From: Chrysophaeum taylorii | Lineage: Eukaryota; Sar; Pelagophyceae; Pelagomonadales; Pelagomonadaceae | NCBI GenBank assembly: GCA_029834535.1 | Contig: JAQMWT010000044.1 | Span: forward strand, 186,001 to 250,000 | DNA: 64,000 nucleotides | Direction of reading: 5' to 3' | Shown: positions 3,020 through 61,353 of the stretch, one piece after another | Position numbering within the stretch: position 1 is the first letter of the stretch | Layout of the letters: each line of letters opens with the position of its first letter | Translations under genes and position numbers: made by a program | The notes under the pieces: model-generated | Database searches by the model: none | Seen by the model: the letters and a program-made list of their open reading frames with translations, nothing else | Told to the model about the DNA's origin: nothing

Positions 3020-3935
3020 TGAAGGACAGGTAGGCGCGAGGTAAGGATCAGGTAGGCGCGAGAGCCGGCCTCCAAGCCGTCAACGGCGACCTCGCAGACA
3101 TTTCGCACGACCCGCGGCGGCTCTTTCAGCGCGCCTTCTCACGCCCCGTCGAAACGATGTTGTCGGCTGACAACGCGCGCATGACCGCGGCCTTTTTCCC
3201 GAAGACGAGGCGTCGGAGTTCTTTTCGGCCGACTAGGCTGGGTCCTCGCTCTTTACAGTCGAGTTTTCAACCCCTGACAACCAACGGCATGCTGACTTTG
3301 ATCGCGAGCTTAAAGTCTTCGCAACCTCGACCCGTCGCACGGCCACTGCAACGGTACCAGATACATCATCGATAGTGTCGTGTCACCGAGGCTCCTCCAA
3401 CCTGTATCCCTCAAGCCCCACCGACGCCAAACGATCACCAAGAGCCAGGGCCAGACGCCCCGCGAGGTCGGCGTCCTCTTGGCGAAGCCCGTCTTCTGCC
3501 ACGTCCAGCTCTACGTGGCTCTCTGTCGATCGGCAACCCCGAGGATATCCTCTTCTAAGTCGACGACTCCACCCTACCCCACACGTGCTGCGCAATACCG
3601 ATAAGCCCCCTCACGGCGTCTACACGCGCACTGTAGGTTAACTTACTGGGACCAGGTGAACTTACTGGGGTTAGAGATTGGGACTAGGTGAGCTGAGTGC
3701 CCAGGTGAACTAACTGGGACCAGGTGAACTAACTGGGACCAGGTGAACTTTCTGGGGTGTTTAGAGTAAACTCAAGGGTTGGCGGCGCGTGCGGATCACA
3801 GCAGCTTGGATTGGCGGGGGTGAGAGCGACGAGCTCAAAGGAGAGTGGGGTGAGTGGGTGTGAGCACGAGTGGGTTTACGCCGAACTTACTGGGGTTAGA
3901 GATTGGGACTAGGTGAACTTACTGGCCTGCACTTG
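3020..3935 (+). mobile_element. Helitron fragment with decayed Pif1-type helicase C-terminus (copy 1)
   Basis: In broken frames the stretch encodes Helitron helicase motifs: ...RAILTPRRNDVV-like, NLDPSHGHCNGTRYII (about 3330-3375), and INKSQGQT...KPVFCHVQLYVAL (about 3430-3520). These correspond to the final motifs of the RepHel helicase of rolling-circle transposons. Downstream are short direct repeats of the type GGTGAACTTACTGGGACCA. The 3' end reads GGCCTGCACTTG followed by T, shared with copies at 39675 and 59175. The Rep domain and the 5' terminus are missing. Related copies are at 39675-40826, 59175-60306 and 60307-61291. Confidence 0.75.
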
Positions 3936-6911: not shown

Positions 6912-9900
6912 ATGGCCGCCTTCGACCCCGCCGACGCTGGGGCGTGCTTCGCCGAGCTCAAGCGCCACCTCGACTTGCCCGAAGCGCAAAACACGATTCC
7001 GATTCCTCTCGACGAGCTGTTCGAAGAGGCCTTCGACCTGTGCTTCAAGGTGCACCCTAGTTCGCTCAGTCCCGAAGCGCGCGCCGCCTTCTTCAACAAC
7101 CTCAATCGGAACCAGAACGGGCGCGTATCTTTCGTCGAGTGGCGGCTGTTCCACCGGCAGTGGCGGGCGTCCCGCGAGTCGATGGCCGACTACCTCGCGT
7201 CGCTGCCGACGTCCGGAGCGCTGACTAGCTCGACGCCCACGCACGACCAAAAAATCGCGACCACGATCGAAACCGACGCGCCCAAAGAGGAAGACTACGG
7301 TACGGGCACGGTCGAGGGCCGCGTGGAGGGGATTCAGGCGTTAAGCGGGCTCGGAGCTGCGGTTATTGCAATGGAAGCTCAAGAAGCCCCCGCAATCACG
7401 GTCGATGGTCGCGGCTCCGGGGGTGCTGAAGTCGGTCTGCTAGACGGCATTCGTTTTGAACTCAAGCTGGCGTTTCCCATCGAATTTGCTTGGCGGATCC
7501 TTAAGAATGCGGTAATTAAATACGGCGGCGGCGACGAGACCCGCGACATGATCATCGCCTCTCTGAAAGAAGATACAGAGAAGATCATCGCCTCTCTGAA
7601 AGAAGACACGCGGACGATCATCGCCTCTCTGAAAGAAGACACGCAGACGACCATAGAAGATCTCAAAGTGCTCCGCACGGCCAAGCTATCTGCCGTTTCA
7701 GACATGCTCGAGTCGCTGCTGGAAAAGTACGAGCTCTTGGCGTTGTCGATTTCGTCGTCGGATGAGCTGAGGAAGAGCGATGACTTCAGAAGGCTCCGCG
7801 ACGATGCCGTCAGTGTTCGGAATCTCGCGACCGAGGCGTTCCGCACCGTCCCGAACAAGGAGCAGAAGGTTCATGCAGTGAAGATCGCCATGATCGCGAC
7901 GGCAATCGGTTACGGCCTCGGGGCGAGCGCCGTAGAGGCCCATGTCGAACTGAAACACGAAGTCGAGAAGTTGCTCGGCGACGAGAGTATCAAGCGGGCC
8001 ATCAACACGCAGCTCAAAGGCGGCGCCGGGGCTTTCTCGTTTGGGAGCAGGGATGATCGCGAAAAGCTTATCTGCGACATCCTGGTGCTCGTTCTTCGCG
8101 AACACTCGTTCGCTGTCACGCACGGTTTCCGCGACAGGGAGTCTGTGGAGCCGATTCTGCACTCGAAGTCTATTATCGAGTTTCTGTTAAATCGGAACGG
8201 TACCGGCTACCTTCGAACGCTGGGCAAGGAGCGACTCGAGCTCTTCACAGCCGATTTCCCCACGCTTGGAACTCCGCACTTCTCAGTCCTTAAGTCGTAC
8301 GTCTTCCCCGCAGTGTTTGTCTTTGTGCTTCAATGAACGTCGCGTTGTGGTGAAAACTCGTGGGCGCAGTTTCGAGAGCTCGGGCGTCGAGGACGCGGCG
8401 CGAAAGGCGGAAATCATCGTTGGAATCCGAAACGACACCAATCTCGATCTAAGGTGAATCGCTGTGCCCGAGCATTTTTTTGAGATTGTCGGAAATTCGT
8501 TTGTTGTGCTCCGCGGGCAAACTCGACGATACCGCACCATCCCACGTCTGCCGTCCCCATTCTACCATCGCACTTATTCGTTGCTCGCAGCTCAAAAAAT
8601 ATCGGCGACGAGGGCGCCGTGGCGATATCCGCAGGGCTAGAGAAAAACACGACGCTCCAGTCGCTCGGGCTTCCGTGCGTATTTCCAAACAATGGTCCCT
8701 ACGAATGTTTATTGTCTCTCCACAACGAGAGCTCCCGACGCATCGCGTCTCCAGCGAATCGCGCCAACGATCCCTCGTACGCCCATTTTTTTTTCATGTT
8801 CTTTTTGTGTGATTGCTGTGTTACCATCTCACCCCGAGTGCTTCTCGCAGCTCCAACCGCATCGGCGACGAGGGCGCGAGGGCTCTTTCACAAATGCTCT
8901 CCAAAAACACGACGCTCCGGATTCTCGAGCTTAAGTGCGTATTTCCGAACTTAGTCCCCACGAATGTTTATTGTCTCTCCACAACGAGAGCTCCCGGCGC
9001 ATCGCGTCTCCAGCGAATCGCGCCAACGATCCCTCGTACGCCCATTTTTTTTCATGTTCTTTTTGTGTGATTGCTGTGTTACCATCTCACCCCGAGTGCT
9101 TCTCGCAGCTCCAACCGCATCGGCGACGAGGGCGCGAGGGCTCTTTCACAAATGCTCTCCAAAAACACGACGCTCCGGATTCTCGGGCTTTCGTGCGTAT
9201 TTCCGAACTTAGTCCCTACGAATGTTTATTGTCTCTCCACAACGAGAGCTCCCGGCGCATCGCGTCTCCAACGAATCGCGCCAACGATCCCTCGTACGCC
9301 CATTTTTTTTTCATGTTCTTTTCGTGTGATTGCTGTGTTACCATCTCACCCCGAGTGCTTCTCGCAGCAACAACCACATCGGCGACGAGGGCGCGAGGGC
9401 TCTTTCACAAATGCTCTCCAAAAACACGACGCTCCAGACGCTCTGGCTTAAGTGCGTATTTCCGAACTTAGTCCCTACGAATGTTTATTGTCTCTCCACA
9501 ACGAGAGCTCCCGGCGCATCGCGTCTCCAACGAATCGCGCCAACGATCCCTCGTACGCCCATTTTTTTTTCATGTTCTTTTTGTGTGATTGCTGTGTTAC
9601 CATCTCACCCCGAGTGCTTCTCGCAGCTCCAACCGCATCGGCGACGAGGGCGCGAGGGCTCTTTCACAAATGCTCTCCAAAAACACGACGCTCCGGATTC
9701 TCGAGCTTAAGTGCGTATTTCCGAACTTAGTCCCCACGAATGTTTATTGTCTCTCCACAACGAGAGCTCCCGGCGCATCGCGTCTCCAGCGAATCGCGCC
9801 AACGATCCCTCGTACGCCCATTTTTTTTTCATGTTCTTTTTGTGTGATTGCTGTGTTACCATCTCACCCCGAGTGCTTCTCGCAGCTCCAACCGCATCGG

Positions 9901-11137
9901 CGACGAGGGCGCGAGGGCTCTTTCACAAATGCTCTCCAAAAACACGACGCTCCGGATTCTCGGGCTTTCGTGCGTATTTCCGAACTTAGTCCCTACGAAT
10001 GTTTATTGTCTCTCCACAACGAGAGCTCCCGGCGCATCGCGTCTCCAACGAATCGCGCCAACGATCCCTCGTACGCCCATTTTTTTTTCATGTTCTTTTC
10101 GTGTGATTGCTGTGTTACCATCTCACCCCGAGTGCTTCTCGCAGCAACAACCACATCGGCGACGAGGGCGCGAGGGCTCTTTCACAAATGCTCTCCAAAA
10201 ACACGACGCTCCAGACGCTCTGGCTTAAGTGCGTATTTCCGAACTTAGTCCCTACGAATGTTTATTGTCTCTCCACAACGAGAGCTCCCGGCGCATCGCG
10301 TCTCCAACGAATCGCGCCAACGATCCCTCGTACACAAAATTTTTTTTCATGTTCTTTTTGTGTGATTGCTGTGTTACCATCTCACCCCGAGTGCTTCTCG
10401 CAGCTCCAACCGCATCGGCGACGAGGGCGCGAGGGCACTTTCACAAATGCTCTCCAAAAACACGACGCTCCAGAAGCTCTGGCTTGAGTGCGTATTTCCG
10501 AACTTAGTCCCTACGAATGTTTATTGTCTCTCCACAACGAGAGCTCCCGGCGCATCGCGTCTCCAACGAATCGCGCCAACGATCCCTCGTACGCCCATTT
10601 TTTTTTCATGTTCTTTTTGTGTGATTGCTGTGTTACCATCTCACCCCGAGTGCTTCTCGCAGCAACAACCACATCGGCGACGAGGGCGCGAGGGCTCTTT
10701 CACAAATGCTCTCCAAAAACACGACGCTCCAGACGCTCGTGCTTTCGTGCGTATTTCCGAACTTAGTCCCTACGAATGTTTATTGTCTCTCCACAACGAG
10801 AGCTCCCGGCGCATCGCGTCTCCAACGAATCGCGCCAACGATCCCTCGTACGCCCATTTTTTTTTCATGTTCTTCTTGAGTGGTTGCTGTGTTACCATCT
10901 CACCCCGAGTGCTTCTCGCAGCCACAACCGTATCGGCGACGAGGGCGCGAGGGCTCTTTCACAAATGCTCTCCAAAAACACGACGCTCCAGACGCTCGGG
11001 CTTTCGTGCGTATTTTAAACTCCAACATTCTCCAGCGAACCGAGATGTGTGCACATAGGAATAACAACATCACCGACGCCGCCGCCAGAACCTCGCTTCG
11101 AGCTGCCGCTGGGCCATCGCTAAAATTGTTCCTCTGA
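6912..11137 (+). CDS. EF-hand / coiled-coil / LRR protein with modular LRR exons (795 aa)
   Basis: Predicted exons are 6912-8296, 8370-8453, ten 84-nt exons at 8591, 8851, 9109, 9368, 9627, 9886, 10145, 10404, 10663 and 10922, and a last exon 11059-11137. They sum to 2388 nt, exactly 796 codons. The start is ATG in GAGATGGCC. Residues about 55-70 hold an EF-hand-like loop (NRNQNGRVSFVE). Three 11-residue repeats (IIASLKEDT) follow near residue 215, then a helical region, then about 12 RI-type LRRs. All introns are phase 2, so LRR exons can be added or removed without frame change. There is no signal peptide or membrane span, so a cytosolic receptor or scaffold is likely. The first intron donor could be 3 nt earlier. 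The architecture recalls exon-per-repeat LRR/TPR candidate immune receptors described in the brown alga Ectocarpus, but no NB-ARC or ROCO domain is visible. Function is inferred. Confidence 0.82.
7551..7649 (+). repeat. 33-nt tandem repeat x3 encoding an 11-residue coiled-coil repeat
   Basis: Units start at 7551, 7584 and 7617, each encoding IIASLKEDT plus two variable residues. The 11-residue periodicity suits a hendecad coiled coil between the EF-hand region and the LRRs. Confidence 0.85.
8591..11005 (+). repeat. 259-bp exon+intron tandem array, array 2, with a three-unit higher-order repeat
   Basis: Ten units are spaced 258-260 nt apart. Units 2-4 (8851-9626) recur as units 5-7 (9627-10403) with the same exon order (R-E, R-G, H-W at the variable positions) and a 776/777-nt offset, so a triplet was copied very recently. 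Introns are nearly identical to those of array 1. Confidence 0.92.
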
Positions 11138-11251
11138 GGAACGCGGACGTTTCGACGACTCGCGAAAACACCAATCGCCGCAGGTTGTTGTGAGGGTGTG
11201 GAGGTCCAGCAACCTACCCCGTCGCGCGCTATCAAATGGGCGTGTGTCTTT

Positions 11252-11417
11252 AGAAGTTTCTTTCGCCTGCGTTTTCTCCTCCTCTCCTCCGAGGTGTTGG
11301 CTGACGCCCCCCACCCACGGAGAGTGCTCCCCTTAGAAGTTTCTTTCGCCTGCGTTTTCTCCTCCTCTCCTCCGAGGTGTTGGCTGAGGCCCCCCACCCA
11401 CGGAGAGTGCTCCCCTT
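11252..11417 (+). repeat. 83-bp direct repeat, two copies, in the TYW1 leader
   Basis: Units start at 11252 and 11335. They are homologous to the three units at 2135-2383 and lie just upstream of the TYW1 ATG. The reading frame is open across them, but this is more likely 5' leader than coding sequence. Confidence 0.88.
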
Positions 11418-11437
11418 ATCTCTTAACCCTCCCCCAT

Positions 11438-13183
11438 ATGATGGAGGGCGAGGTCTTGGCGATGATGATGATGGTTCTTGTGATATTGGTGATCATCGCG
11501 AGCGTCGTCGTCGTGGTTCGACGTGTTCGACGGAAGAGGGGCGAGGCCGTGGTGGTGGTGTACGGTACGACGAAGGGGCGTGCGCGCGAGGTTGCGAATG
11601 AGTTGGCCGCGGGGCTGTCGCGCCCATCGATCATCGTCGACGCCGCTCGCGACGAAATCCGTTGGGAGATTCCCCGCGACATCGTGGTGATTGTCGCGAC
11701 TTATGATGGTCTCGCGCCCGAAGGGACGCGGCAGACGTTTGCTGATCTCGAGGAGGCGTCGGCGGACTTTCGCGTGGGGGCCGCGTTGACGGGAAAGAAG
11801 TATTCCATCCTTGGACTGGGGAGCTCGGCGTACGCCGAATACAATACCGCCGCCAAGACAATCGACGGGCATTTGCGGCGGTTCGGCGGCGCGCGCGTCG
11901 CGTGCGAGTTCCTGGACGACTGCAAGAACGATCGCGCCAAGGAGGCGCGATGGATGAAGCGAACGATAAAAGCGATGGAATCCAAGAAGAAGACGAAGAT
12001 TCTAAACCTCCCCCCACCGTCCCGGGAAGAGCAGCCGGACGACATCGAGGACACTGCAGCAGCAGCAGCAGTACAAGTGACGGCGCGGCAAGCGAGGAAT
12101 TTGAAGAAGGAGGGGTACGCGCTCGTGGGGTCTCATTCGGCCGTGAAGCTATGCAGATGGACCAAACATCAACTTCGCGGTCGTGGCGGCTGCTACAAAC
12201 ACACGTTCTACGGGATCACGAGCTACCAGTGCATGGAGGCGACGCCGTCCCTCGCGTGCGCGAACAAGTGTGTGTTTTGCTGGCGACATCACACGAATCC
12301 CGTGAGCAAGGAGTGGAAGTGGAGCGCGGACGATCCTTGGTGGATCGTGGACGCGGCCGTCCGGGAGCACGTGAAAATGATTCGGGCGGCCAAAGGGATT
12401 CCGGGGGTCTTGGAGGACCGGTGGCGCGAGGCCCACACTGTTCGACACTGCGCTCTTTCTCTGGTCGGCGAACCCATAATGTACCCTCGGATTAACGAGC
12501 TCGTCGGCGAACTTCATCGAAGGGGAATATCGACGTTTCTAGTCACGAACGCCCAATTTCCCGAGGCCCTCGAGACCCTCGACCCCGTCACGCAGCTCTA
12601 CGTCTCCGTCGACGCGCCGACCGAAAAGGAATTGCTGGAAATCGATCGTCCTTTATTCAAAGACGCGTGGGATAGACTTAAGCGAAGCCTCGAGATCGCA
12701 AAGCGAAAGAAGGGCAGGACCGTCGCGCGGCTGACGATCGTCAAAGGCTACAACAACGACCCAGCTGGATACGCGGATCTCGTGAATGGCGTCACCTTTG
12801 TGGAGATCAAGGGGGTGACGTTCTGCGGCAAATCCGACGCCTCGAACCTCACGATGGACAATTGCCCGTGGTACGACGAAGTTCTCGACTTTGCGCGCGA
12901 TCTGCTCCGCCACCTCCCCGACTACGACATCGCCTGCGCCCACAAGCACTCCGTCTCCGTGCTCTTGGCGCGCACCGAGCTCAAGAAAGACGGCGTCTGG
13001 CACACGTGGATCGACTACGAAAAATTTCTCGATCTCCTGCGCACCTCCTCCCCCGGCGACTTTGGAGTCGAGGACTACTGGGCCCCGACCCCCTCCTGGG
13101 CCCTCTTCGGCGCGCAGGAAGATGGCTTCGACCCCAGCGACACCCGCCTCTACAAGAAGAAAGCCAACGGAAAGTCGAGATGA
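11438..13183 (+). CDS. TYW1: tRNA 4-demethylwyosine synthase TYW1 (581 aa)
   Basis: TYW1 converts N1-methylguanosine-37 of tRNA-Phe to 4-demethylwyosine, using pyruvate and S-adenosylmethionine, in wybutosine synthesis. The chosen start is ATGATG at 11438. It is followed by a strongly hydrophobic segment (MMMMVLVILVIIASVVVVV), as in the ER-anchored eukaryotic forms. A flavodoxin domain follows (VVVVYGTTKGRA; LGLGSSAYAEY), then an acidic/Ala linker, then the radical-SAM domain with CxxxCxxC (CANKCVFC, residues about 275-282). The C-terminus WALFGAQEDGFDP is typical of the family. Length is normal and there is no intron. It lies 300 bp downstream of the LRR gene stop on the same strand, an arrangement repeated in the broken copy at 2404. 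Identification is confident. Confidence 0.96.
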   Translation: MMEGEVLAMMMMVLVILVIIASVVVVVRRVRRKRGEAVVVVYGTTKGRAREVANELAAGLSRPSIIVDAARDEIRWEIPRDIVVIVATYDGLAPEGTRQTFADLEEASADFRVGAALTGKKYSILGLGSSAYAEYNTAAKTIDGHLRRFGGARVACEFLDDCKNDRAKEARWMKRTIKAMESKKKTKILNLPPPSREEQPDDIEDTAAAAAVQVTARQARNLKKEGYALVGSHSAVKLCRWTKHQLRGRGGCYKHTFYGITSYQCMEATPSLACANKCVFCWRHHTNPVSKEWKWSADDPWWIVDAAVREHVKMIRAAKGIPGVLEDRWREAHTVRHCALSLVGEPIMYPRINELVGELHRRGISTFLVTNAQFPEALETLDPVTQLYVSVDAPTEKELLEIDRPLFKDAWDRLKRSLEIAKRKKGRTVARLTIVKGYNNDPAGYADLVNGVTFVEIKGVTFCGKSDASNLTMDNCPWYDEVLDFARDLLRHLPDYDIACAHKHSVSVLLARTELKKDGVWHTWIDYEKFLDLLRTSSPGDFGVEDYWAPTPSWALFGAQEDGFDPSDTRLYKKKANGKSR

Positions 13184-14378: not shown

Positions 14379-15611
14379 TCACCCTCCGGCGTCCGAGGAA
14401 TCCTCGGGATCGGGGGTGACCCGACGACTTTGAGCTTGGAGGAGCTGAGCTGATGTGTCGCTCAGACTTTTTTCATCAGGGCGTGCGCTTGAAGCAGGCA
14501 GGGCACCGAAGGCGACGTCGCCGTCGTGGAGGAAAACATCGATGTTGCAGCAGCGGAAGGATCGGTTGTGGTCGCCGCCGCAGGGCGTGGGGAGGGCGGA
14601 GCAGATGGGGATATGGCGGAGGACGTCCGCGTACAAAAAGAGCGCATAGATAACCCCCGCGGCGCCCGCGAAGAAGAGTTTCGAGAGGACGAACGAGTAG
14701 AAGATGTTGGAGATGAAAGCGACGATCAGGAGCGACACGGCCGTTGCGAAGGTTTTGAGGATGTTGTCGGCGTACTTGATGACGGCGCCGATCAGCAAGC
14801 CGCCGCACGCCTGGACGCCCACGTAGAGCCACGCCTCCTTGCCAAAGCCCGTGAGAACTCCACATTCTGCGACCGAGACGCGGGACTCGGTGTGGCCCAA
14901 CACAACAAAGCTTCCGGTGAGGCAGCTGAAGGTCGCGAGGTGGATGTTCCGAATCCATAAAGAAATAGGATTCGCCTTGAGCACCGACTCGAAGTAGACG
15001 CCAGCAAACCCCGAGATGAAGCAGGCCAGGGTCACCACGAACAATCCAAGTTCGATGTTTTTTGCGCCTTCGTCCCCCGTGGAGTGCTGGCGCTTCGCGA
15101 TCTGGACGACGGCGATCGCCGCCGTGAGGACGACGAGCGCGAGCCACTGTCGGAACACCAACCGCCGTCGGAGCAACGTCACCGTGAAGACGCCGGTCGC
15201 GAGGATCTTGAGCTGGCCGAACAGGGCGAGGAGGGGACCCTCGAGATTGTCTGCAGCGACGAGCAAGAGGTTATTCGAGATCGTGTAGAGGAAGGCAGGA
15301 ACGAGGATTTTGGCGCAATCTAGAGGATTCGAGGCCGTCACTTTTGCGACGAGCTGCGCGGCCTCGACGAAGCTCGAGTTCTCCAGGCGGAGCAGCAGGA
15401 TGGCTCCGACAATTTTCAAGAGTTCGATCACGACGACGCCCGTTGTTGACTGGAACGGACACTGAGTTTGCACCGACGCCACGACCCGCGCGCGTCGCGC
15501 CGCGACGTTGAGCACCGCGTTCTGCACGATCAGACCCGCGAGCAGGGCGAGCTTTAGGCACACGCCGGGCTCGCTCCTCTCTGCAACCAGGTTGTTGTTG
15601 TTCATCATCAT
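14379..15611 (-). CDS. SLC35A-type nucleotide-sugar transporter, copy 1 (410 aa)
   Basis: The protein is a multi-span membrane protein of the UDP-galactose/CMP-sialic acid transporter family (drug/metabolite transporter superfamily). Such proteins exchange nucleotide sugars for nucleoside monophosphates across the Golgi or ER membrane. Visible hallmarks are LVPAFLYTISNNLL, LKILATGVFTV, GVYFESVLK, and a helix-rich C-terminal half (ADNILKTFATAVS). The start is the first ATG of ATGATGATG at 15611, with a short Asn run. There is no intron. The C-terminal tail after SALPTPCGG is polar and not shared with copy 2. Substrate cannot be predicted from sequence alone. The gene is a tandem duplicate of 16280-17392 on the same strand. 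Confidence 0.92.
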   Translation of the reverse strand: MMMNNNNLVAERSEPGVCLKLALLAGLIVQNAVLNVAARRARVVASVQTQCPFQSTTGVVVIELLKIVGAILLLRLENSSFVEAAQLVAKVTASNPLDCAKILVPAFLYTISNNLLLVAADNLEGPLLALFGQLKILATGVFTVTLLRRRLVFRQWLALVVLTAAIAVVQIAKRQHSTGDEGAKNIELGLFVVTLACFISGFAGVYFESVLKANPISLWIRNIHLATFSCLTGSFVVLGHTESRVSVAECGVLTGFGKEAWLYVGVQACGGLLIGAVIKYADNILKTFATAVSLLIVAFISNIFYSFVLSKLFFAGAAGVIYALFLYADVLRHIPICSALPTPCGGDHNRSFRCCNIDVFLHDGDVAFGALPASSARPDEKSLSDTSAQLLQAQSRRVTPDPEDSSDAGG

Positions 15612-16279: not shown

Positions 16280-17392
16280 TTACGGCGACTCTGGACCGAT
16301 GGCGACGTCGCCGTCATGGAGGAGAATATTCGTGTTGCAGCAGTGAAAGGAACGGTTGTGATTGCCGCCGCAGGGCGTGGGGAGGGCGGAGCAGATGGGG
16401 ATATGGCGGAGGACGTCCGCGTACAAAAAGAGCGCATAGATAACCCCCGCGGCGCCCGCGAAGAAGAGTTTCGAGAGGACGAACGAGTAGAAGATGTTGG
16501 AGATGAAAGCGACGATCAGGAGCGACACGGCCGTTGCGAAGGTTTTGAGGATGTTGTCGGCGTACTTGATGACGGCGCCGATCAGCAAGCCGCCGCACGC
16601 CTGGACGCCCACGTAGAGCCACGCCTCCTTGCCAAAGCCCGCGAGCACCCCACATTCTGCGACCGAGACGCGGGACTCGGTGTGGGCCAACACAACAAAG
16701 CTTCCGGTGAGGCAGCTGAAGGTCGCGAGGTGGATGTTCCGAATCCATAAAGAAATAGGATTCGCCTTGAGCACCGACTCGAAGTAGACGCCAGCAAACC
16801 CCGAGATGAAGCAGGCCAGGGTCACCACGAACAATCCAAGTTCGATGTTTTTTGCGCCTTCGTCCCCCGTGGAGTGCTGGCGCTTCGCGATCTGGACGAC
16901 GGCGATCGCCGCCGTGAGGACGACGAGCGCGAGCCACTGTCGGAACACCAACCACCGCCGGAGCAACGTCACCGTGAAGACGCCGGTCGCGAGGATCTTG
17001 AGCTGGCCGAACAGGGCGAGGAGGGGACCCTCGAGATTGTCTGCAGCAACGAGCAAGAGGTTATTCGAGATCGTGTAGAGGAAGGCAGGAACGAGGATTT
17101 TGGCGCAATCTACAGGATTCGAGGTCGTCACTTTTGCGACGCGCTGCGCGGCCTCGACGAAGCTCGAGTTCTCCAGGCGGAGCAGCAGGATGGCTCCGAC
17201 AATTTTCAAGAGTTCGATCACGACGACGCCCGTTGTTGACTGGAACGGACACTGAGTTTGCACCGACGCCACGACCCGCGCGCGTCGCGCCGCGACGTTG
17301 AGCGCCGCGTTTTGCACGACGAGACCTGCGAGCAGGGCGAGCTTCTGATATGCGACCGGCTCGCCCTCGGTACCCAATTCCCTAGTGTTCAT
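16280..17392 (-). CDS. SLC35A-type nucleotide-sugar transporter, copy 2 (370 aa)
   Basis: About 1.07 kb (16313-17380) is nearly identical to copy 1, including LVPAFLYTISNNLL and GVYFESVLK, so the duplication or a conversion event is recent. The chosen start is ATG at 17392 (MNTRELGTEG). An upstream in-frame TTG-led extension is not used. The N-terminal 15 residues and the C-terminus (ending near GPESP) differ from copy 1, because homology stops at both coding ends. This copy therefore lacks the 40-residue tail. Membrane topology should be the same as copy 1. Both copies look translatable. Confidence 0.9.
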   Translation of the reverse strand: MNTRELGTEGEPVAYQKLALLAGLVVQNAALNVAARRARVVASVQTQCPFQSTTGVVVIELLKIVGAILLLRLENSSFVEAAQRVAKVTTSNPVDCAKILVPAFLYTISNNLLLVAADNLEGPLLALFGQLKILATGVFTVTLLRRWLVFRQWLALVVLTAAIAVVQIAKRQHSTGDEGAKNIELGLFVVTLACFISGFAGVYFESVLKANPISLWIRNIHLATFSCLTGSFVVLAHTESRVSVAECGVLAGFGKEAWLYVGVQACGGLLIGAVIKYADNILKTFATAVSLLIVAFISNIFYSFVLSKLFFAGAAGVIYALFLYADVLRHIPICSALPTPCGGNHNRSFHCCNTNILLHDGDVAIGPESP

Positions 17393-20300
17393 CGTGAATA
17401 AAATTATTAAAAAGAATTCTATATTCAAAACATCGGATATCCAACGGAACTATTTATGACTGCGACCCTTTTCACCAAAGAGGTTTCGTAGCGAAGAAGA
17501 AGAAGAAGAAGGGACGGTGTGCTTGACGCCCCGACCTCGATGATGCCGAATGTCCCAGCGCCGTCCGTCGGTGCAGGCGGAGGAGGAATGACCAAATTCG
17601 CTGGGCGACGACCTCCTTGACACGTATCCTCCTCGCCATGATGGTAAGCGGCGCCGCGGCTCGCCGATGACCCCGACTAGGCCCTGGCTTTCAGGCTCTC
17701 CTCCGGCCTTCACCCCCGAACCCCTTGTGCGGGATACGCGACTCCGCCTTCCAGGCATATCCCTCGTGTCCCCACACTAACTAAACTAACTTCGGACCTC
17801 TCCCGGGCATGGGAGCTAGGCTGGGCCGGCAGGAGCCGGTCCAGGATCAGAGAGCAAAAATCACACGGTTGGGGTATAGAGGCGGGGGATGAAAAGGCGT
17901 TGATGGCGGACCGCCACTGCGGACCGCGGTCTTGTGCGAGGTCGTGCCACGAGTTGTGAAGGGGATGCCGCATTTCCGGAGTGCCTTCCTGGCGAGCGTC
18001 CTCGCGTACGTACGTCATATGCGGAGCCCCCCGGTGGGCGCTTGGAGCGGGCCCAAGATGAGAGCATCTTGCGAGGGAGTCGGGAGCATGCGGGCGACGT
18101 GCTCCGCTGGCGGCGCGTGACGTAGACGTCGATGGACTCGAGGCCGAGACGCCGCAGCAGGATCTCCGTTGAGATGTGGTGGAGGCAGGTAGGTGTGCTT
18201 CCGGGGTCGCACGACACATGACGCGGGCGCAGTGCGCGTCCCCACACAACGCACCAAAAAAACCATCAAGCACCCGCACGCCCCCCCTCTATTTGTAGTA
18301 GCAGTCGACCTTTTCTCAATAAAAAAACGAACAGTGTTTGAAACATGCAAAAAAAAAGAAAGTAGTACAAAAGACGCATCCGATTAGCGTGTGCTCAAAG
18401 AGAGTTCTCACAACCGTCGTCGAGGTGGCAGGCTACGGTGGCGGCCAACGCGCGGACGATGAACCGACTTAAGAAATCTCGGGGCACTGTGCGACAACTC
18501 GTGGGCGTCCTTCGCGAGATCGCCCTAGCGCTGGGCTGCGGCGACGTCGTCGACGCCGCTCGATGGCAAAGATATCGCTACCACCCGCGTTCGCTTTTTC
18601 AAACGATGTCGCAAGAGAACTGGACGCTGAGGGCGTACGTGATCTCCGACCAGAGCGCGGCTGGCGAGGCCAAGGCGATCGCCAATAGGCTTCCGAGACC
18701 TGAGTCGTCGCGCGCTCCAGTTCGTTCGTCAAGTTCACCTGGAGCGCTACGGAGCCGACGGTTCTCGAGCGCCAACCAGCCTAGCCTCCTTCAGAGTCTG
18801 CTGCTGCCAGGATTTATAATCCACAACTGAGCTGTCCGTCGACGGACGGCCACTCCGCGTTCCGCGACGTCTTCGTTCGGGCGCGGCTCTAGTCTCCGAC
18901 TGCTGACACCAATGATCCAGAAAGACCATGTTCGACGCGCTCCGGTGCCGCGGGAGGGAGGGAGGACCCAGCTCTCGACGATGGCGACTCGACGCGGCAC
19001 ACTCCTAAGTATCAGGTCCCGAGAGACGCTGTCATCGATCGAGGGGCGTGGGCGACCTCAAACCCAAGCCATAAATCTCGGGCAAGGACCCGACGATCGG
19101 CCTGGTTATTCTATGGCCAAAATTCCTCGCCGCGCACCTCGAGTACGAACGCATCAAGTCCCGCGAGTTGGTCGCCGCGTGAGTACCGACTTGAGCTGTT
19201 CGGGACGCCCCTGCGTGTCGAACTTGAGGCGGCGGCACTGATCTCAAGGCCAATGTTGTGGAGTGCAGTGCCTCTCGTCACCCTAAAAAGCGGCGGACGA
19301 GTGGCGGCTCTGAGAGCTGCTGCCAACGATCGACCGTTGTTTTTGCGTCGCGAAATTCTTGTCGAAATTCGCTACTGGATGTCCAACACCATCATCGAGG
19401 TGGTATTCGACGAAAACTCCAATCAGTGTCGCTAGAGAAGACTCCAGGGGTTGGATCTTCGTTTGCTGCGACGACGGTTTAAGCCGCCACCGGTGTTAAC
19501 TCCAAAAGCGGGTTTCGCGGCGGCGCTTCGTACGAACGTACGACGACGACGAGGAAGCCGAGCGTGAAGACAGGGGCCAATTGAAGTAAGTGGCCCTACA
19601 CAGCGCGAAAGGCGCAGTCTAAACGCACCGCGCCTATTGCGATGGATGTTGTAGTTGGAGCCGATGGCAGAATAGAGCCCCTACTAGCCTCGCCCGCTTC
19701 CCCTGACGGACGGACGGAATCCCGTGTAGATACTCCAAATCCGCAGCTCTCCAGTAAAATCGATATCAACTTGGCGACGGACTACTAAAAAAGCCGGCCG
19801 ATTATTTATTATTTTTCTTTGGGGAGTTTCGGTTTCTTGGCCGACACTCTTAGCAATCAACCTTTTGAAAAAAAAACAAAAAACCCCTTGCTGCTGAAAA
19901 AAAAAATGGGACGCACTGTGTGGCGGTAACGCCCTTCCCTCCAGTTTACCCTTTTGCCTTGAACTTGGAGATGCCGCCCTGCCATCTCGATTCACCTGCC
20001 ACTCTATTGATTGCATTCCCCTTCGAAACAACCTCATTATCGGCGCCACGGGCGAGATCACTCGCGGTTCAGCCATTATTAAGGGTCGCGTTGCGACCGC
20101 CGGTCCGGCCTAGGGGAGTGGGCAAACCCGGGAGTTTCCGCAGGACAAGATTCCTCGTGCTCAGGCAGCGCTCGCAGTAGTAGCTCTGCGCGCCGCCATG
20201 TGTACTACCAATTGAAACAACCCTTAGAGGCAGGCAGGCTCTCGCCATGTCCGGAAGGAAGGAACCCATACTGCACCACCTTGGTGAGCGGCCGATACAG

Positions 20301-31482: not shown

Positions 31483-31922
31483 GCTGTAATCGGTCGGCAA
31501 AGACTCTTCTGCCACAAGCGCCAAGCACAAGCCAGGAAGCTTCCTGTCTTTCGACCGGGCGCCTACATCATACCGACTACTACATTATTCAATTGAGCGC
31601 ACCATAACCCTTTGGTCTGGCATGTGTCATGGAATCTTCAGAAAACATTCTAAGATTAATCTTCAGAAAACATTCGGAAGATTCCGTCCGATGTCCGAAA
31701 AGAATGCGAAACCGTCGTTATTACAGGCCCGCCACGACAACCGTACCGGAAGGAAAGGAACAGGTTTTTCCCTGCGCCCTCTGTCATGTTCCTAGTAGGA
31801 ATAAAACGCATTCCCGTATATTCCTAGGAAAAAAGTACGTCTCAGAATTTGCCATTTCGAGTCGTGGAATGAATAGTCGCGTCACGCGAGCGTGCGAACG
31901 CACAAGGCTGCGAATCTCACAA
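31483..31922. other. Divergent intergenic region between the PAP2-like and acyl-ligase genes
   Basis: Shared promoter region for two head-to-head genes. From about 31815 it is homologous to 46545-46647, the start of the duplicated block. Confidence 0.55.
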
Positions 31923-34729
31923 ATGACGTCGAGTATGTCGAGTATGCCGCAGTGGTGGCGGCCCTGGAGCGACGAACCTAGTTGGCAGGCTCAGGCAAGC
32001 GTGACGGCAACTGTCCTCGCGGACGAAACGTTCTTGACGTGGCTCGACGGCTCCGGCGCCGAAGCTGTCGACCTCTCGTACGGCCAAGTCTGGAGCCGCT
32101 CGGCAGGCATGGCCGAGTGGTTCTTCGGGGATAACGGTCTCGCGGCGGGCGATCGCGCCATGCTCGTGTACGCGCCGGGGCCCGAGTTCTTCGTCGCCTT
32201 TGTGGCGTGTCTTCGCGCCGGCGTCTTGGCCGTGCCGAATTACCCCCCCGACCCCTCAAACCTGCGACGAGGCCTGGAGAAGCTGGACCTCGTTACCATA
32301 TCCTGCGGCGCCAGGGTGGGCCTCACCGACGACGTCGTGCACAAGTTGCGCGTGACGACGAGCGTGTTGCACTCGTGGCCCGACATTCGCTGGCACAATA
32401 CGGACGGCCTCGGCGGCGACGACCACCGACGTGCATCCCGTGGGCTGATGAGCACGGCGGCCTTTGTGGGGTCGTCCGGTTATTCCTTTGCCTCGAGCGG
32501 CGACGCGAGCAGACGTATGTCGAAGGAAGCTACGTCGGAAAACGTTCCTTCTCGAGTTTCCCAAAGCACGCTCGCCTCGCGCTTCTTTGGCTCAATATTC
32601 AGCAGCAGCAGCAGCGCTGGCTCCGACGCGACGGATTCGGATACTTCACTTCTCGACGGCCAGGACGATAACATCTCGTGCGTATCGCCCGTTCGCACCG
32701 AAAAGTTCGGCGACAAACATCAACAGAGTAGATCCAGTCTCGACAGAACCCCGAACGACGACGACGACGACGATTCCATAGCTTTTTTACAATTCACGTC
32801 TGGCTCTACCGGGTGCGTGCGTTTGTTTCTCGCTTGACCCGAGCTGCTTCCTTCTTCTTCACCAGGGACCCCAAGGGCGTCATGATTTCGCATGGCAACA
32901 TCTGGCACAATCTCAACGTTATTTTCTTGCCCGCGCAACGCCGTTGTTTCGACCTTCGCTTGGGCGAGGCCAGCAGCAGCCGCTTGTACGATCTTCACGA
33001 AACGTCGGTGCGCGTCGTCACGGTCTCGTGGCTGCCGCAGTTCCACGACACGGGTCTGATGTTGACGTTGCTTGGGCCGTTCTGCGCCGGATACCACATG
33101 GTCAACTTCTCGCCGCTCTCGTTCCTCGCCGACCCGCTCGCGTGGCTGCGCGCCATATCTAAATACCGCGCGCTCTGGACCGCGGCGCCAGACTTCGGCT
33201 ACCAACTGTGCACGAAGCGAGCAGTCGACGGTGCCGATATCAGCGACCTCGACCTGAGTTGTGTGGCCTTTCTGGCTTGCGGTGCTGGCCAGCGATCCGT
33301 TCCTTCGATCCTCCGCGAGTTCGCCGCGTACTTCGCCATTCACTGCAGGTTGCCGGACGACGGCAATCGGAGCTTATTCGTGCAGGGCTATGGCCTGGCC
33401 GAGCACGTAGTCGCGACGTGCGCCGAGGCCGAGGGCATCGTCACGTCGCGACGGCGGCCAGACCTCGCCTCGTGCGGCTCCGACTTCCAGATTGACTTCC
33501 GCATCGTCGATTCGGAGACGCGGTGCGTCGTGCCCGACGGCGCGCCCGGCGAGCTGTGGTTGAGCTCGGGCTCGGTTGCCAAGGGCTACTGGGGCAAGCC
33601 CGAGCTCACCAGGGAGACTTTTCACGCCCGACTCGAGCCTGACGACGGCAAGGTATACCTCAGGACGGGCGACGAGGCCTTCCTCGAGGACGGCCACCTG
33701 TTCATTTGCGGCCGAATCAAAGACATGATCATCATCGGCGGCGAAAATTATTACAGCGACGACGTCGAAATTGCTGCGACGGAGGCTATGGTCGACGCCG
33801 TGAGACCTGGATGCATCGCCGCCTTTTCGGCCACGGCCGACGACGACGAGGAGTTCTTGTGTATCGTGCTCGAAGTCCGCGATCACGCTGCCTCCGAGTG
33901 CGAGGCTCTCGCGTCGACGCTCACCAAGTGCGTTCGCAAAGCGGTTGGTCTGACACCGCGCCGCATCGTGTACATCAAGCAGAAGACCATCTTGAAAACG
34001 ACGAGCGGGAAGCTGCGACGCCGGGCGATTCGAGAAGCGTTGTTGGGTGGCGAGCTTCGCGTTGTCTTTGATTCGAACCCAACTCTCGGCGGCAAGCAAC
34101 AAACGCTATCCGCCGCCGGTTGCGAGCAAGACGATTCTCGAAAGAACTCGACGGATGACTTTTCGAAGTGGCTATGGCGCCTCGCCAGCTCCGCGAGCGA
34201 TTTGGCGGGCTATCCGCTGGATTCGACATCACCACGTAAACAAACCGATGATCCGACATTGAAGTGGTCCGAGTCCTTGCTCGCGGAAGCGCAGGCTCGG
34301 GGACGTTCCTACGAGCTTTCGGACTTTCTTGGCGTCTGGGAAGTGCTCGACGACCACTACGCGATTCGAAAATTCGACGTCAAGGCCGAAAACGCGATCG
34401 ACGACAGTCAGAGCCAGTGCCCCTAAGAATTTAGCCATAAAAAGCTTGATGAATCTCGCAGGTGAAAACTTGTACTGCCAGCACCATTTGGGCTGTGGGC
34501 GTTGCGCGCACGAAAGTGCTCTCGTCGCGAAGATCGTGGTGTCGAAAGACGACGTCGAGACCAGACCCGACGTTCGAGATGACGTAATCGCACGACTGCC
34601 GCGAGAGATTTACGTGCTTGTCCTCCATCAGAACGGCGTCGTCAAGTTCGTCCCGTACGCCTCGAGCTCGCGTCTCCTCCTCGCGGCGCTCGATAGCTGT
34701 GACAGCCTCGATGCCGAGATGAATCTTGC
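31923..34729 (+). CDS. Fatty-acyl-AMP ligase module, locus copy 1 (N-terminal part of a multidomain synthetase)
   Basis: Exons are 31923-32812, 32866-34406 and 34462-34729. Introns are 53 and 55 nt, and a further donor lies at 34730. The domain activates a fatty acid as acyl-adenylate. Joining the first two exons rebuilds the ATP-binding loop TSGSTGDPKGVMISHGN. FAAL-type signatures follow: SWLPQFHDTGLM, NFSPLSFLADPLAWLRAIS, and the C-terminal GRIKDMIIIGGENYYSDDVE and LKTTSGKLRRRAIRE with the acyl-ligase lysine region. The chosen start is ATGACGTCGA, conserved in copy 2. An earlier in-frame ATG at 31629 lies outside the duplicated block. The FAAL reading is preferred to an amino-acid adenylation domain because of the PLxFLxxPxxWL motif. 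It is probably one gene with the next module. Confidence 0.82.
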
Positions 34730-34789
34730 GTAAAAAAAGCTTGCAGCGTCGCGAACGAAAAGACGTAACTTGAACGACATGACTTTTAG

Positions 34790-35671
34790 AACCCAGGCAC
34801 GCCGAGAAATTCGGTTGCTTCTGCTTTGGCATCGTTGTCGGCGAAGGCCGAGATCGCAGAATGATTCGCTGCAATCGATGGGCGACGGACAACCGCTATT
34901 TCTGGTCCGCCGTCAACTCGACGACCGACTTTCGTGAACCGAATGAAATCGGTGAGCATCTGATCGAGCTTGGCCTCGCTGCGCATTCCGGCGTCGACGG
35001 CGCGACGCCTTCGGGCGCACTCCGCGACACCATTATCGCGCTCGATGGCGAAGGCTCTTCTGGCGGCGGCGAGGAAGCCGTTGTTTCGCGAGCAGCGAGA
35101 GCGGTCAAGAACCAGCCACCAGGTATCGATAACGACCAATTGTTGTTCGCGTGGCAATCTTCCGAAACCTCTACCGACGACGCGCCCTTCTCTCTCGGCG
35201 TGGCTCTCGTCGACCGCGTAGCAAAGCAGATCTTGGGGCTTTTCCCGCCAGGCACCTCTCTCAAAGACCATCCGGACGTGGCAATCATACTTCGGCAGCA
35301 GCTCGACGTTCCGGACGAGCTCATGCGACGTCTCGAGTACGACGAGTCCGTTGTCGACGTCGCAGATTTCGTCGAGGCGGTCAAGTCAAATCTCATCAAG
35401 ATGCCCGTTCTCCTGCAGGTCGCGCAAGAACTCGAGGTCCAAGAGCCCGGTGGTCTTCCCGTTTCAGACGAGCGCGCCGCGGCCGACCTGCGGACTGCGG
35501 TTCTCTATTGTTTCGCTCTTCACACGCTCGCGATCTCGATGCTGCGGGCGTCTGCGTTGATGCCACAGAGTTCTGACTTCTTAGTCGATTTCTTGAAAGC
35601 CCAAGAAGCAGCCGTCATTCGCGCGAACGACGACGATGCTACGGATGATGCGTCGACTATGATTGCGTGCG

Positions 35672-35703
<32 letters not shown>

Positions 35704-38700
35704 CGGACTCCACGCGCGCAGGCTCATGAAAAACGAGGCGCTTCTGTCAGCTCTAAGAAACATGGCCGAGACGAGACGCGACCGGAGTCAACTCGCGACT
35801 GCGCGCGCAACCGGGGTGCTGCTCGCGGACAGTATCATGATGGAAGCCATCGAGGACGTTTCGAAAAATTCGACCGCAATGCTCGCGCCGAGCCAGAGTC
35901 TCGCTCAATTATTGCGGTTGTACAAAGGAACACGAATTCGCACTATCGCAGGCGCTGGTTTCGAGCTCGCTTACTGGAGCTGCGTGCTTCGACAATCAAC
36001 TGCACGAGTTGAGATTTCCACGACCAAGCTGCTGCGTTCGGGTGTTACCGAGCTAGTTCGCCTCGAGATGTGCCCGGCTATGATGTCGGAATGGGTCCAA
36101 ACTTATATCGTGTGGAATCTCTCATCCGGGTTCTCAGAACCATTCCTGCCTCGTGTCGCGACTCTTTTTGTACCGTGCTTGCTGTCGTTAACCAACGAAG
36201 ATCCAGCTTTTTTCGCGTGGACGCGCCTCCTGACGTTAAACGTGCACGCCGCTTCGCTGGCTTGTCATCCCGAGCTTCGGCAGATGTCGGCGACGACGTA
36301 CGACTGGCGCGAGACCATGAATGCGTCGGGCGCGATGAGCGAACATCTTGCGTTTCAATTCAGAGTTTTCGCGTGCATTGTGAATGATTGTTGTTGTCGC
36401 GCCTGAAATTCGCTCGAAATAAAAATTCGACCCCCAGGTGCCAACTTTCGAGCGCAATTTCTGCCAAGATAAAGAGCCGCCGCCCTCAGAGCCAAGCTGG
36501 AAGCGATGCACAGATCGCAACACTGTTTGCCAAGACGCGGCAAGAGATCCTCGAGAGATACCAGACGTCGCAGAGTTCGACGTTGAACAATCTAAGCGGT
36601 GTTCTCGGCGAGGAATGGCTTAACAAGATTCGGTCGCGCGTGACGAAACGCGAGGACCAGCAGCAGCAGCAGCAGCAGCATGAATTATCCGACGAAAAAA
36701 GCGGTATCACTGCAAAAGAAGACCTCGTCGTCGTCCAGAGATCAAACGCCGGCGACGACGACGAGTCCGCGGCGCCGCTGGTGTCGGGAGGCCTGCTGGA
36801 GACGAAAGTTCGCGAAGAACAGCTCGCGTACGTACAAACCACTCTCCTGCGCATTCTCGCATCGATGGCATCAGAGTCCGACATCGACGTACAGACAACG
36901 TCTGTGGCACAGTTTGGCCTGTCTTCTCAAGACGCGCTGATGGTGCAGACGCGGTTACAGCAGGACTTGTCTGTGGAAGTGCACTTCAACTTGCTTATGG
37001 ATCCGAATCTTAAGATTGCTGGATTGGCCAACGAAATTCTTTGTATTGCGCGCGAGGAAAGCGAGCTGCCGCTCGCGCAGCTCGTGCCACTCCCCGATGA
37101 TGGCATCGATCTCGGGTCGTCTCGTACGATGCTCCCGCAACGGGTTGTCGACGTGGCTCAGGTGCTCTTAACGGTCGTCGTCGTAGTCTTGGTGTCGATC
37201 GCGCTCATTCCATCGTATCACTTTGGGCGCTGGGCGCAGTGGCGTGCGAAGTCTATTGGTTCGAAGCGCATTCGAGTTCGACGCGACAACGCGCCGTGGT
37301 CGCATATCAAGGTTGCCGGGACAGATCGTGTTTATACTTATGGTCTCTTAGTTCCATTGGTTATCCCGCTCTTCATGATGTCGCTTACGGTGATAACTAT
37401 CGCGTCAAAATGGCTCGTGATCGGTCGCTACCGCGTTGGGACTACGCGCCGCGGGACGCGTTTTTTCTGCGCTGGTGGTTCGTCGATCGCGTGCTAGACC
37501 AGTTCAACGCGTGGGTTGGCGTGTTCATAAACGATACGCTCTTCATTAACGTGTTCTACTTGCTGATGGGCGCGCACATCTCGATTCATGCGTCTGTTGA
37601 GAATCACCTGCTGCGAGAGGTCGACCTCGTCTCTATCGGGCCGTACGCGCGAGCGAGCGGCATCTGCTACGCGCGAATGTTCGAGCCCAGCGGCGGCATG
37701 CGTTTCGCGCGAGTCATCATCGAGCCGCATTCGAAGATCGAGTCAACTGCTATCGTCATGCCAGGCTGCAAGATCGAGCACGGCGCCGTGCTCGAGCACG
37801 GTGCCGCCACGATAGCTGGCCAGCTCCTCGCGAGCGAAAACGCGTATCGATCGAGCCCGGCGCAATTGGTCGGTGTCGCGCAAAAAAACAAACCGGCTCT
37901 GCCGACCGGCTGGCTCGCCTTTGAGCTTTTGAAACTCGCGACGCTCGCGTGCTATCTCTTCGGTTCGTTGAAAGCCTCAAACGTATTGCTCGAATACGTT
38001 CTGCGACGGCTCGACTGGTACTCTTGGCGGTTTCGGTATCGCGAGCTCCTATATTTTGTCATGGGCTATTTTCTCGCGCTCTTCGTGTCGGCAGGCGTGG
38101 GTGTTGTGGTGTTCAAGTGGCTGCTGATCGGCCGGCTGCGTCCGGGGATGCGCAAGTCGACGGACTTGACGTGGCGCCTGCGGACGTGGTTCGTCGAGTG
38201 GATATGGTACCGCGTCTTGCTCTCGTTCGGAGCAATGCTGTGGCAAGAGAACGGTCTAATCAGCGTGGCGCTGATGAAGGCGTTGGGTATGCGCGCACAC
38301 TATACGGCAAGCATGGCAACCCTCTCCTTTTTCTCGCCTGTCGAAGCCGACTTGATCGAGGCGAGCACCAATTTTTTTTTGTAGAACGTTGTTGTTGTTG
38401 TTGTTGTTGTTGTTGTCTTCTCGCGCGCGCGCGCAATAACACACTTCTCAGGTCGGCGAATTCGCAACTCTATCTGGCGGCGGCATGGCGATCTCGTGCG
38501 AAAGCGCGACGGGAGAGTACAAGGCAGTTAGGATCGAAGCGCGCGCACAAGTTGGCCTGCGCGCACGGCTCAACGCGGGCGCGGTCGTCGAGAAGGACGC
38601 GGGCGTTGGACACCAGACGGTGGTACCCGAGGATTTCGTCGTCAGAACCGGGACAACTTACTTCGCTAGCAGCGTATTTCATCGCAAGACGGAGGATCGC

Positions 38701-39586: not shown

Positions 39587-39674
39587 GTATTTTACTTACT
39601 TCTAGCAATTTGGATGGGCAGGTTTATTGAGCCTTACCCGTAACACGTCACACGATGTATTAGATACATACTAA

Positions 39675-46544: not shown

Positions 46545-46647
46545 ACGTATATTCCTAGGAAAAGTACGTCTCAGAATTTGCCATTTCGAGTCGTGGAATA
46601 GTCGCGTCACTCGAGCGCGCGAACGCACAAGGCTGCGAATCTCACGC

Positions 46648-49435: not shown

Positions 49436-49495
49436 GTAAAAAAAGCTTGCAGCGTCGCGAACGAAAAGACGTAACTTGAACGACATGACTTTTAG

Positions 49496-50377: not shown

Positions 50378-50409
<32 letters not shown>

Positions 50410-61291: not shown

Positions 61292-61353
61292 GGACTAGGT
61301 GAAATTAAATTGATAAAAGAACAAGGGCCAGGAGGTCCGGCATGATGTACAAA

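Follow-up and report, generated by a model that had tools for sequence, protein, structure and literature searches.

Why should the repeats of an LRR gene differ strongly at a handful of codons when the introns between them hardly differ at all? This question is raised by CTAYLR_002121, a gene of the colony-forming pelagophyte Chrysophaeum taylorii that is located at positions 6912-11137 of a 64,000-nucleotide stretch of contig JAQMWT010000044.1 (C44), referred to below as the window. It stands fourth and last in a row of tandem paralogues, which we designated genes A to D.

Exon organisation of CTAYLR_002121

Gene D lies on the forward strand, with its ATG at 6912 and the end of its stop codon at 11137. 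These coordinates, which had been proposed in the initial annotation, proved exact, and the spliced model of the gene matched the deposited protein (P0001; 795 aa) letter for letter. The model starts with an exon of 1385 nt (6912-8296) that ends in phase 2 and encodes 461 aa plus a split codon, comprising an EF-hand-like segment and a helical region. This is followed by eleven phase-2 exons of 84 nt, each encoding one RI-type LRR, and by a terminal exon of 79 nt including the stop codon (11059-11137), which encodes the C-terminus. All eleven LRR exons are used in the deposited model and all share the same length and phase, so that the cassette anatomy and frame neutrality claimed for this gene were borne out. 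The introns were of the GT..AG type in 12 of 12 cases, with GTGCGT as the donor in ten, GTACGT in one and GTGAAT in one, while the acceptors were TCTCGCAG (nine introns), GCTCGCAG (one), GGGCGCAG (one) and GCACATAG (one). An Rfam scan across the window gave no match.

Ten of the eleven LRR exons are located inside an array with a period of ~259 bp, for which TRF reported 9.2 copies of 259 bp. The remaining one, exon 2 (8370-8453), encodes a degenerate first LRR and is not part of the homogenised array, but it was correctly described as an 84-nt exon in phase 2; exon 2 is likewise found in genes A-C, and the second exon of CTAYLR_005759 is also 84 nt long. Within the array, the edge exon D1 (8591-8674) has diverged and is clearly unlike the other nine. 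Units D2-D4 (8851-9626; exons 8851-8934, 9109-9192 and 9368-9451 with their introns) and D5-D7 (9627-10403; exons 9627-9710, 9886-9969 and 10145-10228 with their introns) are the two copies of a triple block. Exons D8 (10404-10487) and D9 (10663-10746) and their intervening intron span 10404-10746, and D10 (10922-11005) is followed by an unlike intron of 53 nt. The initial picture of ten near-identical exon-plus-intron units of 259 bp was therefore accurate for nine units of 258-260 bp and for nine array exons, whereas the tenth exon carries a different intron and the first exon is not near-identical to the others.

Tandem paralogues and turnover of array units

The arrays of genes A, B, C and D comprise 10, 5, 8 and 10 exons, respectively, and are ~1.1-2.4 kb long. 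Array size thus differs between the tandem paralogues of this one assembly. All 33 array exons are 84 nt long, in phase 2 and in open frame, and every array exon is used in the deposited CTAYLR_002113 model. A second array within the window, absent from the initial annotation, belongs to the 3′ part of gene C (forward strand, 2-2020), with array exons at 2-85, 260-343, 510-593, 769-852, 1029-1112, 1288-1371, 1547-1630 and 1808-1891 and a terminal exon at 1945-2020; exon 1 of this gene lies left of the window (C44:184356-185707). An 83-bp tandem repeat on the forward strand downstream of gene D (11250-11418), which is also present downstream of gene C (2133-2384), marks the segmental duplication. 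In gene A, exon 1 shows a frame break relative to the other paralogues, which the annotation spans with a 56-nt intron.

Exon 1 of genes B and D is identical at 1383 of 1385 positions. However, since the 1000 bp preceding exon 1 are only 93.5% identical, this exon looks converted, and its identity was dropped as a clock for array change.

Duplication of array units, as had been suggested, was evident in the triple block of gene D (~777 bp): across 252 nt, the exons of D2-D4 and D5-D7 show no difference, and the introns, taken together, have five differing aligned positions, one of which is an indel. This block duplication is recent, and its identical exons argue against ongoing hypermutation. 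Shuffling of exon sequence was also upheld, within exons: of 91 pairs of biallelic sites, 35 showed all four gametes, some of which recurrent mutation could explain.

Diversity of exons and introns within the arrays

Diversity within the arrays was expressed in pairwise measures only; array units share ancestry and recombine, so that their sites are not independent. By these measures, array introns differed by ~2% (0.0185), the clean fourfold silent sites of array exons by ~3% (0.028) and their interleaved buried codons by 0.009, whereas codon positions 1 and 2 of the concave-face residues differed by ~41% (0.415). Amino-acid-changing diversity at the concave codons was ~15-fold that at the clean silent sites, an excess at codons whose presumed ligand-facing role is deduced from the LRR fold. 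Among 29 core units, seven amino acids were found at each of codons 1 and 26. Codons 3, 6, 12 and 14 were also variable, though they lie outside the concave set, and the codons between the hypervariable ones were almost invariant, silent sites included. Since the concave excess is accompanied by quiet introns and quiet silent sites, the sequences point to diversifying selection on the putative binding face during turnover and homogenisation of the units.

The exon-faster pattern was contradicted in two of five positional B/C pairs, with 17 intron versus 3 exon differences in B1/C1 and 4 versus 1 in B4/C4. Most intron variants were singletons, at 17 of the 27 segregating core sites, and between units with identical introns there were up to 12 differences in the 84 exon nucleotides (A4 versus A6).

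Predicted fold and N-terminal region

The family protein consists of an EF-hand-like and helical N-terminus joined to an LRR horseshoe of the NLRP/RNase-inhibitor type, and is probably intracellular. Assignment of the repeats to the RI type followed from their length of 28 aa, from Pfam LRR_6 matches in ten stretches (E 8.7e-71), and from RNase inhibitor and NLRP3 as the best structural matches of a predicted structure in which strands are spaced every 28 residues. This whole-protein prediction was built on a 3-sequence alignment and did not resolve the N-terminus, where pLDDT stayed below 50 all along residues 100-257 and 334-484. High scores in the structure comparison also went to axonemal LRR proteins, RanGAP and CARMIL, and the fold thus gives no pointer to immunity.

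For exon 1, the four paralogues showed 36-56% identity. Pfam assigned no family above the cut-off to gene D exon 1, with only a sub-threshold BORCS6 match, and no EF-hand match was listed for it at E 1; the gene A protein gave EF-hand_5 at E 0.03, below the cut-off. By eye, the N-terminus contains what we take to be an EF-hand loop motif. Roc, COR, NACHT or NB-ARC families were not listed at E 0.1 for P0001-P0004. The middle N-terminal region was not detectably an MLKL_N domain (hhalign probability 0.2%), and when the alignment of N-termini was used for a profile search of PDB sequences, the three matches obtained, at E 0.38-0.85, were taken as chance. Among ~8000 candidates scored per search, homologues of the N-terminus came from C. 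taylorii only, a restriction that is unproved because the searches missed known relatives in the same genome, such as a gene on contig C25. The proposal that the N-terminal partner differs from that in Ectocarpus held within this scope, in that it is not ROCO.

Other loci with one LRR per exon

The one-LRR-per-exon layout is not exclusive to CTAYLR_002121: unlinked loci also carry 84-nt phase-2 LRR exons, and one unlinked array, of 13 exons, has a different N-terminus. An LRR-start pattern had 32 matches outside the C44 arrays, 12 of which have CAG at the boundary; upon inspection, 8 of these 12 showed GT at exactly 84 nt. A genome-wide Pfam LRR_6 scan listed 20 LRRs, all in frames of at least 123 aa, and missed the short exons. 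With a 758-bp array piece as DNA query, the matches listed were on C44 and contig C203 only, such counts being lower bounds.

Like gene D, CTAYLR_005759 on C203 and the array on contig C314 have phase-2 LRR exons of mostly 84 nt, with mostly TCGCAG acceptors and GTGCGT donors. The C203 gene differs in having exons of 84-96 nt and introns of 47-733 nt. The C314 array differs in being preceded by a charged repetitive frame and in having introns about as diverged as its exons (exon pi 0.27 versus intron pi 0.31), the exons not exceeding the introns, and it again displayed the concave-face variation pattern.

Possible origins of the pattern

We consider it reasonably probable that the genes constitute a lineage-specific tandem LRR family in which frame-neutral units undergo turnover and the diversity of the binding face is maintained by selection. 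Because every repeat is a phase-2 exon, the reading frame would survive the gain, loss or relocation of units. Array turnover would be driven by unequal exchange and gene conversion acting between the near-identical introns and constant exon cores, during which diversifying selection would maintain variation on the binding face. With less certainty, the proteins may recognise variable non-self ligands, be it of a microbe, a virus or a mate, and signal via the N-terminus. The array layout looks like a fast route to new recognition surfaces.

The pattern might also come from an ordinary young tandem duplication, whose introns would be too young to have diverged and in which unequal crossing-over would have reshuffled older exon variants; the product would then be a structural or scaffold LRR protein under no special selection. 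The ~2% distance between introns and their many singletons, the recent duplicates with identical exons, and the apparent activity of conversion and duplication, as in exon 1 of B and D, all fit this idea. However, neutral shuffling of old exons would bring along linked silent differences, and the fourfold sites and buried codons are about as quiet as the introns, in contrast to the concave codons. Together with the 33 of 33 exons that retain 84 nt and an open frame and the recurrence of the concave pattern on C314, this makes such an origin unlikely. A targeted diversification of the exons, by somatic or germ-line hypermutation or by donor-templated conversion, might account for the ~15-fold excess, for the seven amino acids at codons 1 and 26, and for the A4 and A6 exons beside identical introns. 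Yet the recently duplicated block has changed introns and unchanged exons, regional mutation would not spare the near-invariant codons between the hypervariable ones, and distant donor copies were not among the matches listed for the 758-bp query. We therefore regard it as highly improbable.

Combinatorial splicing, in which near-identical introns and splice sites let cells or transcripts vary their LRR exons, is compatible with turnover under diversifying selection and seems possible, if rather less than likely. Skipping any LRR exon causes no frame shift, precedents exist in Ectocarpus ROCO genes (PMC11378527, in part) and one human NLRP3 exon (PMC6642158, in part), and the deposited model of the paralogue CTAYLR_005759 omits a well-formed 84-nt phase-2 LRR exon (C203:51335-51418) within its 733-nt intron. 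That omission may, however, reflect an annotation choice, and the deposited CTAYLR_002121 and CTAYLR_002113 models use every array exon; the published RNA-seq consists of 50-base single-end reads, too short to bridge several 84-nt exons. Near-identical 259-bp units are also difficult to assemble, and the frame break of gene A could raise the suspicion that unit number and intron identity stem from collapsed or mis-joined repeats. Since the arrays are short relative to long reads, the assembly drew on Nanopore, PacBio and Illumina sequencing alike, and the units contain distinct variants and open frames, an artefact of this kind is very unlikely.

Turnover under diversifying selection might extend to a genome-wide LRR-cassette system, in which unlinked 84-nt exon arrays on varied N-termini, with the intron and binding-face contrast of C44, would form a fast-renewing, immune-like repertoire separate from NLRs and ROCO, widened by the choice of exons in splicing. 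In such a system, the repertoire would be linked to cell-death-like signalling by an EF-hand-like segment in common with a protein that has MLKL_N and kinase domains. We hold this extension to be doubtful.

The near-identical introns beside the repeats serve as a gauge of unit age, an internal control that is rare in repeat genes and by which selection on the repeat becomes directly readable. If the recognition reading is true, the diversification of recognition in protists without NLR- or antibody-type systems would be testable with a cultured strain and public DNA and RNA reads.

Relation to known repeat systems

The C. taylorii arrays vary an already known strategy, and what is new is the presence of quiet introns and silent sites beside 41% concave divergence. 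No earlier report of such C. taylorii genes came up in the literature searched: the main text of the genome paper (PMC10366177) does not mention introns, exon, leucine or repeat, and titles and abstracts on introns that are better conserved than exons, on accelerated evolution and on diversifying selection contained nothing on these arrays.

The brown-algal LRR-ROCO (Ectocarpus, Saccharina) and NB-TPR genes, which were proposed as candidate immune receptors, likewise have a phase-2 exon per repeat, tandem arrays and positive selection at concave positions, as described in parts of PMC11378527. Their LRR-ROCO exons of 72 nt encode an LRR of 23 aa, as opposed to 84 nt and a 28-aa RI-type LRR in C. 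taylorii, and they include ROC-COR domains, none of which was matched in P0001-P0004; the sections of that paper on LRR-ROCO do not describe intron similarity. The parallel with Ectocarpus that had been drawn initially thus applies to the strategy of one repeat per exon and not to the exons themselves, which encode another LRR length. The C. taylorii genes add a further stramenopile case, which belongs to a different class and is built on a different protein backbone; the repeat-per-exon strategy thus seems to have been taken up more than once.

According to parts of PMC6642158, vertebrate NLRP and RNase inhibitor genes share RI-type LRRs of 28 or 29 aa and strict exon modularity, with the exon border at one fixed spot in the beta-sheet, and one LRR exon of human NLRP3 is alternatively spliced. 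The NLRP3 exons, however, are 171 nt long and contain two LRRs instead of one in 84 nt, and no NACHT domain was matched in the C. taylorii proteins. Fungal NLRs whose repeats show high internal conservation carry WD, ANK or TPR repeats, not LRRs, on a NACHT/NB-ARC core, and one exon per repeat is not described for them in the portion of PMC4986451 considered here. In that same portion, the Podospora NWD genes resemble the C. taylorii arrays in their near-identical repeats, concerted evolution and repeat-number variation, as well as in diversifying selection at few binding-face codons.

Gene structure and tandem paralogues

A protein search identified the gene at window positions 6912-11137 as CTAYLR_002121, gene D of contig JAQMWT010000044.1 (C44), which belongs to a 70.8-Mb assembly and contributes its bases 186001-250000 to the window. 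As built from the sequence, its exons lie at 6912-8296 and 8370-8453; ten 84-nt exons then span 8591-11005, and a terminal exon occupies 11059-11137. Spliced and translated, this model was identical to the deposited 795-aa protein, which verified the initial annotation's proposal of an LRR cassette array with one 84-nt exon per LRR. According to the available part of the source, the C. taylorii genes were annotated from RNA-seq and homology, and the assembly was derived from Illumina, Nanopore and PacBio reads (PMC10366177).

Gene D closes a row of four tandem copies on C44, the others being A (C44:162950-167107, 10 array exons), B (C44:173478-176397, 5 array exons) and C (C44:184356-188020, 8 array exons, with its 3′ part within the window); D itself (C44:192912-197137) has 10. 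All 33 array exons were 84 nt long and open in a scan that demanded 84 nt; their spacing is even, with no room for an overlooked exon, and the reading frame was continuous through the arrays in spliced B, C and D and in the deposited A model. The 29 introns between array exons measured 166-177 nt (9 of them other than 175 nt) and started with GTGCGT in 28 cases and GTACGT in one. Exon 1 of A (C44:162950-164270) carries a frame break relative to B-D that the annotation spans with a 56-nt intron, possibly reflecting decay or an assembly error.

Exon diversity is concentrated at the presumed binding face

Once the first unit of every gene, which is diverged, had been set aside (4 of 33 exons and 4 of 29 introns), the mean pairwise difference was 0.107 among the 29 core exons versus 0.0185 among the 25 core introns; with all units included it was 0.153 versus 0.025. 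Per gene, the exon and intron values were 0.073 and 0.007 (A), 0.135 and 0.027 (B), 0.121 and 0.022 (C), and 0.072 and 0.017 (D). LRR binding faces are marked by the xxLxLxx rule, from which we took codons 1, 23, 24, 26 and 28 as the concave set, fixed after the exon translations had been seen. The exon excess was concentrated at these codons, with an amino-acid diversity of 0.594 versus 0.112 elsewhere (exact p = 2.7e-4, 98280 sets; the units are related, which makes their sites non-independent, so that p values, Fisher and exact alike, serve as guides only). Mean differences were 0.415 at concave codon positions 1 and 2, 0.028 at clean fourfold silent sites (n = 10) and 0.009 at the interleaved buried codons (15 sites). 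Uncorrected pN/pS was 2.94 for concave and 1.16 for the remaining codons, and 0.69 for exon 1 of C versus D. Codons 3, 6, 12 and 14 were also variable, and 12 and 14 look as if they vary within a block exchanged whole.

Array units are named here by gene and array position. In a recent event, D2-D4 were copied as D5-D7, and the two triple blocks show no exon difference in 252 nt while five intron positions differ, one of them an indel; with exons unchanged and introns changed, nothing favours a currently higher mutation rate in exons. Two of the five positional B/C pairs likewise argue against faster exons, with 3 exon and 17 intron differences for B1/C1 and 1 and 4 for B4/C4. Among the other pairs, B2/C2, which have a derived intron deletion in common, differ at 12 exon sites and 1 intron site, B3/C3 at 9 and 3, and B5/C8 at 9 exon sites without a comparable intron. 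Within gene A, units A4 and A6 show 12 differences across the 84 exon positions but none in their introns. Since quiet silent sites directly adjoin saturated codons, variation tracks the encoded residue rather than the stretch of DNA. The near-identical introns mean that units are young or homogenised, and diversifying selection would explain their occurrence together with quiet silent sites beside saturated codons. Among 91 pairs of biallelic sites in the exons, 35 contain all four gametes, so parts of exons have probably recombined.

Relatives and a second array

An unlinked relative on another contig, CTAYLR_005759 on C203, consists of one 1247-nt exon followed by LRR exons of 84, 93, 84, 84, 96, 87, 84 and 87 nt; its introns measure 47-733 nt. 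The layout of one LRR per phase-2 exon therefore seems to predate the homogenised array in this family. Within the 733-nt intron of the deposited model, a well-formed 84-nt phase-2 LRR exon (C203:51335-51418, minus strand) is unused, which points either to an annotation gap or to exon skipping. Single-frame relatives (628 aa) combining the N-terminus and LRRs are found near 192 kb on contigs C25 and C521. These contigs also carry a gene (C25:16745-20047 and C521:16751-20053) with the deposited 1473-aa protein CTAYLR_004470, in which the EF-hand-like segment is accompanied by MLKL_N and protein kinase domains; at least four further C. taylorii kinases with MLKL_N were among the matches listed. 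On C44, pieces resembling the N-terminus and/or LRR units lie on the minus strand at 42103-43421, 51549-52305 and 61022-61645, spaced by about 9 kb; one carries a stop codon, and together they may be the decayed remains of an older cluster in the A-D family.

A genome search with a repeat-start pattern gave 48 matches, 16 of them inside the C44 arrays; among the remaining 32, CAG stood at the boundary in 12, of which 8 also had GT at exactly 84 nt. A second array at C314:736810-739065 comprises 13 consecutive 84-nt phase-2 LRR exons whose starts are spaced by 151-196 nt; the scan that detected them gave no matches in reversed or in complemented sequence. Concave diversity was 0.741 versus 0.339 (p = 0.0018), in a scan biased toward the concave/buried contrast by demanding set residues at some buried positions; pN/pS was 1.6 at codons 1, 23, 24 and 26 versus 0.53. 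With a pi of 0.31 for introns and 0.27 for exons, this array is therefore older and lacks intron homogenisation. Upstream is a long frame of charged repeats and not the C44 N-terminus, so that cassette LRR domains have at least two different N-terminal contexts in the C. taylorii genome.

Comparison with known systems

As far as described in the accessible parts of the sources, brown-algal ROCO genes have 72-nt phase-2 LRR exons, four concave positions under positive selection and splice variants (PMC11378527); NLRP3 has 171-nt exons with two LRRs, an exon border at one fixed beta-sheet point and exon skipping (PMC6642158); and fungal NLR repeats undergo concerted evolution, with codons of the binding face under selection (PMC4986451). 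On these accounts, the C. taylorii genes join the exon modularity of ROCO genes and NLRP3 with an evolutionary regime resembling that of fungal NLR repeats, on a different N-terminus and with one 28-aa RI-type LRR per exon. A domain search of the C. taylorii genes did not find the defining domains of ROCO or NLR, and we therefore filed them as neither.

Other features of the window

Downstream of gene D lies a TYW1-like gene (11198-13183) with flavodoxin, radical SAM and wyosine domains. DNA resembling its first part (0.7-0.9 kb) also occurs downstream of A, B and C, and the DNA downstream of A and B has 1.8 kb in common at 98.7%. A 7.9-kb gene-bearing duplication (31808-39676 and 46539-54373, 96%) encodes what, from the translations, we take to be adenylation-domain synthetases with hexapeptide-repeat parts. 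Two neighbouring, closely alike ORFs on the minus strand (14379-15611 and 16280-17428) presumably resemble nucleotide-sugar transporters. Scattered short-period repeats at 3635-3756, 39724-39973, 59392-59450 and 61046-61147 have AGGTGAACTTACTGGGACC or its complement in common and are perhaps parts of a mobile element.
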